This document shows, piece after piece, positions 5,513 to 11,546 of a stretch of DNA of 64,000 bases. The stretch's first letter is position 1. Every line of letters begins with the position of its first letter. The translations under genes and the position numbers were made by a program. A model generated the notes under the pieces. The model had not been told where the DNA came from, made no database searches, and saw nothing but the letters and a program-made list of their open reading frames with translations. Origin of the DNA: Alphaproteobacteria bacterium (GTDB lineage: Bacteria > Pseudomonadota > Alphaproteobacteria > Micavibrionales > Micavibrionaceae); contig JAGRIU010000056.1 in NCBI GenBank assembly GCA_020443075.1, positions 1-64,000 on the forward strand, read 5' to 3'.

Positions 5513-5902
5513 ATGCCAAGACGTATACTGGAAGGCGATGTTGTAAGCGACAAGACAGACAAGACGATCACCGTTCTTGTTGAGCGTCGTTTCAGACACC
5601 CGATCTATAAAAAATACATTAAGAAGACTGACAAATATGCAGCGCACGACCCGAACAACCAGTTCAAAATCGGCGACCGCGTCTCCATCATCGAATGTGC
5701 ACCGATTTCCAAAACCAAGCGTTGGACGGTTGTAACCGGTGATGAAACGGCTGCCGCACCGAAGGCTGAAAAGAAACCGGCCGCCCCGAAAGCTGCGCCT
5801 AAAAAAGAAGAAGCAAAAGCTGAGAAGAAGCCGGCCGCTAAAAAAGAAACAGCCAAAAAGCCGGCCGCTAAAAAAGCGCCCGCTAAGAAAAAGGAGTCCT
5901 AA
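5513..5902 (+). CDS. rpsQ: 30S ribosomal protein S17 with long Lys/Ala tail
   Basis: S17 is a primary binder of the 16S rRNA body. Residues 1-76 form the normal OB-fold protein, with the signature [18 protein letters not shown]. Residues from about 82 to 129 form a tail made of Lys, Ala, Pro and Glu, with repeats such as KKPAAKK, so the protein is about 50% longer than usual. At the DNA level the tail contains a 19-base direct repeat (5828 and 5858). The tail is similar in composition and wording to the N-terminal extension of L30 in the same operon. Confidence 0.97.
5828..5876 (+). repeat. Direct repeat inside the S17 tail
   Basis: The 19 bases at 5828-5846 recur exactly at 5858-5876, a 30-base (10-codon) period that codes for KKPAAKK-type repeats. 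This suggests that the tail grew by slippage or tandem duplication. Confidence 0.8.
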
Positions 5903-6276: not shown

Positions 6277-6600
6277 ATGACACAACAAAAACTGAAGATT
6301 AAAAAAGGCGACGAAGTGATCGTCCTGACCGGAAAAGACAAAGGCGCCAAAGGTGAAGTCCTGAAGGTAATTCCTGCGGAAAACCGTGTTCTTGTCAAAG
6401 GCGTGAACGTCGTAACAAAACACCAGAAACCGACGCAGTTCTCTGCCGGCGGTTTGCAGAAAAAAGAATTGTCGATCCATGCCTCGAATGTGGCGCTGGC
6501 CGACCCGAAATCCGGTAAACCGACCCGCGTTGGCTACAAAACCCTCAAAGACGGGAAAAAAGTCCGCGTGGCAAGAAAATCCGGCGAAACGATAGGGTAA
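6277..6600 (+). CDS. rplX: 50S ribosomal protein L24
   Basis: L24 is an assembly initiator that binds the 5' end of 23S rRNA. Its KOW motif is at residues 6-30, [20 protein letters not shown]. The 107-residue length is normal. It starts 2 bases after rplN. In most bacteria rplE would follow directly; here a 66-codon ORF lies between them. Confidence 0.99.
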
Positions 6601-6605
6601 AGAAA

Positions 6606-6806
6606 ATGTCTTCCGGAATGGATGACTACAAAAAGGAATGTGCAATAGGAAAGGCTTTAGCAGAAAAATTCGGACCTCTTGCGGCGAAAAGCGTCGGTAT
6701 TCGAGTTAAGGATGGAAGAATTACAGATTTAACGTATACAGGTGGTTTTGGCCTAACGTTACAAGAAATAAGAAGATTTGTTAGAGAAGAACTAAAAATT
6801 GAATGA
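6606..6806 (+). CDS. Unknown 66-residue protein inserted between rplX and rplE
   Basis: I do not recognise this protein. It is an intact ORF of 66 residues, placed 5 bases after rplX and 16 before rplE in the same direction, at a junction normally without a gene. Codon choice differs from its neighbours: AGA, ATA, TTA and GTA are common and the stretch is AT-rich. The sequence mixes an N-terminal helical part (DDYKKECAIGKALAEKFG) with a short beta-like part (VGIRVKDGRITDLTYTGG) and a C-terminal charged helix. No signal peptide or membrane segment is seen. The base composition suggests a later insertion. A spurious ORF is possible, but the tight spacing favours a real gene. Confidence 0.6.
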   Translation: MSSGMDDYKKECAIGKALAEKFGPLAAKSVGIRVKDGRITDLTYTGGFGLTLQEIRRFVREELKIE

Positions 6807-6822
6807 ACGAAGTGAGTGAACA

Positions 6823-7365
6823 ATGAAACCGCGTTATCAGGAAATATACGAAAAAGAAATCGTTCCGGCTCTGCAGGAAAAGTACGGCTACAAAAACGTG
6901 CATGAAATTCCGAAGCTGGAAAAAATCGTCATCAATATGGGCGTCGGCGAAGCGACCCAGGACCGTAAGCACATTGAAAATGCGGCAAACGATCTGGGTC
7001 TGATCGCCGGTCAAAAGCCGGTCATCACAAAGGCCAAGCAATCCAACGCCTCGTTCAAGATCCGTGAAAATATGGCGATTGGTTGTAAGGTGACGCTGCG
7101 CCGTCAGCAAATGTATGAATTCTTGGACCGTTTTGTAACGATTGCTCTGCCGCGCGTACGCGACTTCCGCGGCATCAGCCCGAAAAGCTTTGACGGGCGC
7201 GGCAATTATGCGGTTGGCATTAAAGAACACATTATCTTCCCGGAAATTTCCTACGACAAAGTCGATAAGATCCGCGGGATGGATATCGTGATTTGTACTT
7301 CGGCAAAAACAGACGACGAAGCGCGCGAGTTGCTGCGTCTGATGAAACTGCCGTTTAAAAAATAA
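6823..7365 (+). CDS. rplE: 50S ribosomal protein L5
   Basis: L5 binds 5S rRNA and contacts the P-site tRNA and S13. The protein has 180 residues, with the conserved [14 protein letters not shown] near residue 30 and [20 protein letters not shown] around residue 110-130. The Shine-Dalgarno region is weak (GAAGTGAGTG), and lies in the 16 bases after the inserted 66-codon ORF, so translation may depend on that ORF. Confidence 0.99.
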
Positions 7366-10865: not shown

Positions 10866-11546
10866 ATGAAGTCAAAAGCGTTAAAATCATTTTTCCTGTT
10901 TGCCATCCTGGTTTTCATAGGGCTCGTTTCCCATGCGTCACCCGCGAAGGCCATGCGTTTTTGCCAGTTCGAAGATCCGAAAATGATCGTCAAGTTGGGT
11001 AAGCGTCCGACGAAATATATCAAAGGCCACTCTGCGCGCCACCTGACCTCGATGCAGGGCCACACCGCAGGAACCATTCTCGGGCTAGCCGATTCCGGCA
11101 TGGGACTGGAAATCAGAACACAATTTGAAATTGCTGAACAAGACGGTCGCTATTGTGTTGGTATAAAAGCCATGAAAGTCCTGTGGCTGGCGCTACCGAC
11201 GGTCTACCTCGCCAGCGATTACAAAAAGGGTTCATGCGAGTACACGGCCGTTTTAGCCCACGAACAAATTCATATCCGCCGTAATAACCAATTCATCAGC
11301 GAATACGCCCCGCGCTTCAAAAAAGAAGTCGGCAAGATATCCAAGCAAATGCGCACGCAAATCGGCCCGATTGGTGAAAACCAGATTCAGGCGGCGCAAA
11401 CAGAACTGGAAAACCAGATGTATGAAAGATTGATCAATCAGTTCTTCGATCGATATATCCCCGAACTCAACCGCCGCCAAAGCAAGGTCGACAGCCCGGA
11501 AGAATACGCAAAAGTGTTCGCAAAATGTAAAAATTGGGGATTTTAA
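10866..11546 (+). CDS. Predicted secreted protein with HEXXH motif, inserted between rplO and secY
   Basis: I do not recognise the family. The 226-residue protein has a signal peptide (residues 1-29: basic start, hydrophobic LFAILVFIGLVS, AKA cleavage site). Residues 132-136 read HEQIH, in the context YTAVLAHEQIHIRRN, the zinc-binding pattern of many metallopeptidases. The rest is charged and helical, with four cysteines in the mature part at residues 33, 97, 124 and 222. It is probably periplasmic. It has its own promoter and lies behind the spc terminator, so it is probably not regulated with the ribosomal genes. Proteolytic activity is inference from HEXXH only; the third zinc ligand is not identified. 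Confidence 0.8.
   Translation: MKSKALKSFFLFAILVFIGLVSHASPAKAMRFCQFEDPKMIVKLGKRPTKYIKGHSARHLTSMQGHTAGTILGLADSGMGLEIRTQFEIAEQDGRYCVGIKAMKVLWLALPTVYLASDYKKGSCEYTAVLAHEQIHIRRNNQFISEYAPRFKKEVGKISKQMRTQIGPIGENQIQAAQTELENQMYERLINQFFDRYIPELNRRQSKVDSPEEYAKVFAKCKNWGF

Follow-up and report, generated by a model that had tools for sequence, protein, structure and literature searches.

The first part of the window, that is, of the whole stretch of 64,000 nucleotides that was analysed, is the S10-spc-alpha ribosomal-protein cluster. The genes of the cluster carry names that we take to be correct from recognition of their sequences and from their order, and Pfam confirms those of S14 and L30. Named in this way, the intact genes rplX (L24; 6277..6600, forward strand) and rplE (L5; 6823..7365, forward strand, ATG at 6823) enclose a third frame, referred to here as ORF66, which occupies positions 6606..6806 of the same strand, runs from ATG to TGA and would encode a protein of 66 amino acids in 66 codons. 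An earlier note on this DNA described an intact frame fitting exactly between the two genes, with spacings of 5 and 16 bases, and the sequence confirms it. The stop codon of rplX (6598-6600) and the 5-base spacer make up positions 6598..6605, and the 16-base spacer before rplE takes up positions 6807..6822.

A Shine-Dalgarno-like AGGG (6594..6597, forward strand), read from the sequence, falls at the very end of the rplX coding sequence and lies 8 bases ahead of the ORF66 ATG, and rplX ends similarly in several relatives. The downstream spacer holds AAGTGAG (6810-6816), likely the original ribosome-binding region of rplE. Stretches of the GTGAG or GCGAG type occupy its place in several relatives that carry no insert, and this resemblance indicates that the start region of rplE was kept. 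The flanks of 5 and 16 bases correspond to an ordinary junction, so that the insert is about the size of the frame itself.

The AT-rich, foreign-looking composition that the earlier note remarked upon is equally evident. The G+C content of ORF66 is 37.8%, against 50.2% in rplX and 48.9% in rplE, and at codon positions 1, 2 and 3 it is 48, 41 and 24%. All five arginine codons end in A (AGA four times, CGA once), while TTA occurs three times and ATA twice, in keeping with the codon preferences that had been pointed out. The codon score of ORF66 against the window, -0.25, is the lowest of the window ORFs scored (the next being -0.19), within a set picked greedily by length that includes spurious antisense ORFs. 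The expectation that the product would be abundant finds no support here, the codons of ORF66 being unlike those of its neighbours. The antisense strand of ORF66 is likewise open, over 65 codons.

The cluster in this window has further peculiarities of its own. S17 (5513-5902, forward strand) has a long K/A/P-rich tail, and L30 (9755-10156, forward strand) a K/A/P-rich N-terminal extension. Between rplO and secY lies a 226-codon ORF (10866-11546, forward strand) with a signal-like start and the motif LAHEQIH, metallopeptidase-like by eye and without a Pfam family. It is found at the same place in six of seven near relatives, with 27-46% identity, and represents a fast-evolving resident of the spc operon.

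The rplX-rplE junction and the wider cluster across the order

All six same-genus genomes have an rplX-rplE junction that holds no ORF and spans 20-26 bases when rplE is taken to start where it does in the window species. Across the order, in genome sets with one genome per species, 121 of 142 genomes gave an rplE match and the junction was readable in all 121. An extra gene is absent at this place from 119 of the 120 other genomes, with gaps of up to 91 bases. The sole exception, G799, belongs to another genus and has a 94-codon ORF (559-843 of contig L140, reverse strand) with no family and no relative within the order; its sister, G035, has no extra gene there. Kinship between this ORF and ORF66 was rejected, their score being reached by 1438 of 2000 shuffles. 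Among 27 genomes of other orders, a small sample, the largest gap is 123 bases. The earlier statement that almost all bacteria have no gene at this junction is borne out within the order.

The G799 case prompted a survey of S10-spc-alpha in 108 genomes belonging to the order (85 from the same family and 23 from other families). A junction was counted as enlarged when it exceeded its median by at least 120 and up to 600 bases, and the count leaves out rplO-secY, adk-rpsM, rpsC-rplP and rpsE-rpmD because their length is naturally variable. Enlarged junctions number 32 of 2057. In 28 of the 32, at least 60% of the gap is taken up by a forward ATG ORF, and in 2 by a reverse one. Of the two frames, the forward one is the longer in 30 of the 32 (sign test, 2.5e-7), and four junctions lack a long forward ORF.

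The listing of candidate junction ORFs, which leaves out rplO-secY and adk-rpsM, yielded 37, and 28 were kept; the nine dropped have a non-ATG start, exceed 145 amino acids or fill less than 60% of the gap. The dropped candidates include a second adk-like gene inserted at secY-adk in G029 (L232) and a 353-codon frame inserted at rpsC-rplP in G051 (L260), which is mechanosensitive channel-like by eye. The 28 junction ORFs encode 60-138 amino acids, lie in eleven different junctions, and are separated from the preceding gene by a median of 8.5 bases and from the following one by a median of 20; 21 of the 108 genomes, about one in five, have at least one. Their G+C content is lower than that of their two neighbours in 28 of 28 cases (mean 42% versus 53%), and a Shine-Dalgarno-like word precedes 24 of 28, against 877 of 3240 random places, both counts resting on ORFs preselected by length and ATG. 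They are mostly unrelated to one another, with two clear pairs, one at rpsJ-rplC (G011 and G812) and one at rpmD-rplO (G869, L252, and G043, L265). The members of the latter pair are distant relatives (27% identity, E 2e-7) from two genera of another family.

Pfam, run on 22 of the 28, gave one match above cut-off, an LprI-family (lysozyme inhibitor) gene at secY-adk in G192 (L244), which is the sole junction ORF of a known family among those scanned. One operon, that of G032 (L220), contains two inserts, namely 113 codons with a signal-like start at rpmC-rpsQ, and 138 codons starting 2 bases past rpsH at rpsH-rplF. A viral match of the 138-residue product was rejected as a short local stretch in a 94-residue protein. 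Outside the order, the comparison covered 27 genomes and 183 junctions, with gaps of up to 181 bases, and is too small to support any claim that the junction pattern is confined to this order.

The small gene at rpsJ-rplC is a sister case in which selection could be measured. It has 84-87 codons and is located at the same junction each time in G011, G812, G811 and G816 (L298-L301), which are all three genomes of one genus and one genome of another. Its G+C content is 31% in G816 and 48-54% in the other genus. The closest pair has a dN of 0.068 and a dS of 1.08 (dN/dS about 0.06), with 6, 3 and 34 differences at codon positions 1, 2 and 3; dS is saturated in the other pairs. The gene is under strong purifying selection, and at least one intercalated gene is thus constrained in this manner. 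This supports, without proving, the view of ORF66 as a gene, ORF66 itself having no relatives. A further match of the rpsJ-rplC ORF, in G849, is weak and falls in a 301-codon frame of another gene.

Relatives, coding character and alternative readings of ORF66

Single-sequence searches of ORF66 against Pfam, NCBIfam, PHROGs, PADLOC and PDB gave nothing above noise, in agreement with the earlier remark that it belongs to no recognisable family. Phage and plasmid records gave no match better than E 3, and matches to phage baseplate proteins, at E 5, were rejected. Viral contigs gave none, in a scan sensitive to close relatives only. No relatives were found in overlapping sets of 57, 385, 398 and 142 whole genomes (best E 0.003), and the genome itself holds no second copy at the protein or DNA level. 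The one match obtained from the genome contigs, in L015 (74% identity over 19 residues), was rejected, as it lies inside an unrelated 323-residue protein. Duplication of rplE was also considered; the start of ORF66, YKKE..ALAEKFG, is a little like that of L5, yet 9% of shuffles reach the score. ORF66 is thus an ORFan, in the sense that no homologue outside its lineage was detected in the family, PDB, phage, plasmid, viral and genome sets searched.

The AlphaFold (AF2) model of ORF66, built from the single sequence, has a mean pLDDT of 82.4 and a pTM of 0.65; the control, the ORF read from the opposite strand of this DNA, reaches 62.3 and 0.30. The predicted elements, H4-22, H24-28, E30-35, E38-44 and H52-61, follow an alpha-beta-beta-alpha order, and the predicted product is small and soluble; by eye it has no signal peptide or membrane segment. 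Foldseek of the model against PDB and viral models gave no significant match (E 0.88 or worse). The best VIA-align result is a DUF59 domain, 3lno (Z 5.3, rmsd 2.7 A, 65 residues, 12% identity), and other rows include rpS3 KH domains and a NifU-like domain at Z 2.5-3.7, where, by the tool's own note, a Z below 8 possibly reflects a common arrangement alone. The order of elements in DUF59-type and KH-like alpha-beta-beta-alpha folds (3lno, the rpS3 KH domains) does match the model; with 12% identity, a Z under 8 and no sequence match, the likeness may be that of a common arrangement.

ORF66 is probably coding rather than a chance frame, as favoured by the coding statistics and the fold. The opposite reading, that a non-coding or fragmentary AT-rich insert stayed open by chance and is harmless filler, survives best among the alternatives and is nevertheless unlikely. 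It would account for a frame found in a single genome and without relatives, for an antisense strand that is open too, and for the four enlarged junctions that lack a long forward ORF. Against it, only 1000 of 132,882 simulated sequences (first-order Markov, with the dinucleotides of ORF66) were open over the length of the frame, a fraction of 0.0075, and the codon-position bias of ORF66 was equalled in 15 of these 1000. The ATG and the stop fall at the two edges of the insert, the fold confidence is well above that of the antisense control, and the filled junctions number 28 forward versus 2 reverse. The earlier note, which had allowed for a fragment open by chance, also proposed absence from all close relatives as evidence against the frame. 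Orthologues are literally absent from all six same-genus genomes and from the 142 genomes of the order. This absence speaks for recent gain and not for a chance ORF in view of the codon-position bias, the AGGG and the fold prediction, whose antisense control scores lower, and most of all in view of the small forward ORFs that occupy other ribosomal-protein junctions throughout the lineage.

A new ribosome-associated or ribosome-regulating factor, whose location would reflect its function, is a reading we consider rather improbable. The frame does lie among ribosomal-protein genes, and the rpS3 KH and NifU-like rows of the structural comparison could be read in the same sense, but at their Z values they may be a common arrangement only. 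ORF66 is absent from all close relatives, matches no ribosomal-protein family and is not conserved at the locus. The presence of different, unrelated ORFs in many junctions argues for a shared entry site rather than for a shared ribosomal role.

Less probable still is a toxin-like or anti-phage selfish gene, protected by an essential operon in which its loss would be costly. Size and composition would suit such an element, and embedding in the operon would hinder its loss. Searches of PADLOC, PHROGs and Pfam gave no match, however, no partner gene is present, as a single ORF stands between two ribosomal-protein genes where a toxin-antitoxin pair would need two, and neither a signal peptide nor a membrane segment is seen by eye. 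Both this reading and that of a ribosome-associated factor had been put forward earlier, and no positive evidence emerged for either.

That ORF66 is left over from a known enzyme domain (the C-terminal half of GAPDH or glutathione synthetase, for instance) and has since diverged is highly improbable. The best weak matches among 1000-odd genomes are indeed to GAPDH (29-35% over 47-50 residues, E 0.003 to 0.12 per genome), and 0 of 500 shuffles reached the GAPDH score, a test that is post hoc because the pair was chosen after an all-protein search of more than 800 genomes. The GAPDH family is not among the Pfam matches, even at E up to 10. GAPDH is highly conserved, and a real fragment would be expected above 40% identity, which counts against a remnant. 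An assembly artefact, which 71 contigs and an occurrence in one draft genome might suggest, is scarcely credible, as both flanks form the correct operon within one 69-kb contig, contamination is 0.16%, and similar inserts occur in genomes of 5 to 10 contigs (G812, G035, G015, G192).

Two routes may be considered for the source of the DNA. The composition is unlike that of the host and relatives lack the gene, as expected of horizontal acquisition, but no donor was found among phages, plasmids, viral contigs or the genome itself, and neither a mobile element nor terminal repeats were found near the insert. A foreign source is something we infer from composition and distribution. Descent from a phage or mobile element and birth from non-coding DNA fit the A+T-richness and the lack of relatives alike, and these features do not tell the two apart. 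Rickettsia palindromic elements are likewise short inserts, specific to a lineage, that lie within or close to conserved genes, and they consist of repeated palindromes. The insert at rplX-rplE differs from them, and its identity as a palindromic or mobile element was rejected, in that it has no inverted repeats and no second DNA copy; its fold energy is ordinary (z -0.45), and Rfam gives no match of note.

A possible route for new genes in a conserved operon

The reading that we prefer, at a probability of about 0.72, is that ORF66 is a genuine ORFan, recently gained in one lineage on a ribosomal-protein transcript, and one case of an order-wide pattern. ORF66 has no room for a promoter of its own, and should thus be transcribed from the ribosomal-protein transcript. 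The earlier claim of shared transcription stands in so far as the frame is co-directional and, judged by sequence, placed for co-transcription. Translation would start under the direction of the AGGG at the end of rplX and would terminate 16 bases ahead of rplE. As rplE keeps its own ribosome-binding region, the insertion should not be polar.

The same scheme may be extended to the cluster as a whole. The junctions of S10-spc-alpha would repeatedly acquire small, A+T-richer and mostly unrelated genes, and a newcomer would be retained if it is co-directional with the operon and leaves the downstream start intact. In this way, a promoterless newcomer would gain steady expression. A forward newcomer would be expressed at little cost to its neighbours and a reverse one would not, which would explain the forward excess. 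We tentatively suggest, at somewhat less than even odds, that the ribosomal-protein gaps in this order act as a recurrent landing shelf, where forward promoterless newcomers are kept, gain their own ribosome-binding site and may turn into stable functional genes, as at rpsJ-rplC. On this view, ORF66 would have joined very recently, and the shelf would be a general means by which genes are born or captured in highly expressed operons. The shelf may also be merely a general rate of small-gene gain that becomes visible at a well-aligned place.

As for function, we favour a passenger or accessory protein over a component of the ribosome, because both the junctions and the sequences vary between genomes. 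Our guess, offered with reserve, is that it acts by binding, as a cytoplasmic accessory protein descended from a phage or mobile element, and does not belong to the core of the ribosome.

Extra genes in the otherwise conserved cluster have precedents. A study of the cluster in Gammaproteobacteria and Bacilli (PMC8046335) reports, among other insertions, nrdHEF lying between rplL and rsmC, and bfd-bfr lying between str and S10; the routes it considers are duplications, transposable elements and transfer. In both that study and the present case, extra genes enter the cluster; those described in that study are known genes located mostly between operons, whereas here they are single small ORFans that lie inside S10 and spc, between ribosomal-protein genes, in another bacterial class. 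ORF66 also resembles the taxonomically restricted small bacterial genes, or ORFans (e.g., PMC4888513, PMC4765031), in being short, A+T-rich, homologue-free and limited to one lineage. It differs from them in that the operon around it is essential and strongly conserved, and in that many independent cases of the same kind occur across the order. The literature searched, which mostly excludes subscription journals, yielded no description of small orphan genes recurring inside S10-spc, and the junction-gene pattern seems to be undescribed in those papers.

ORF66 is more remarkable as a member of a recurrent pattern than by itself. The S10-spc-alpha cluster is a standard by which the conservation of gene order in bacteria is gauged, and its small, mostly family-less and nearly always forward junction genes are a warning that the ribosomal-protein operon regions of such genomes contain unannotated small genes. 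With one transcript, the same neighbours, a known empty site and different ages, the junction genes make the fate of new genes measurable, and they represent a natural series on how new small proteins acquire translation and function.
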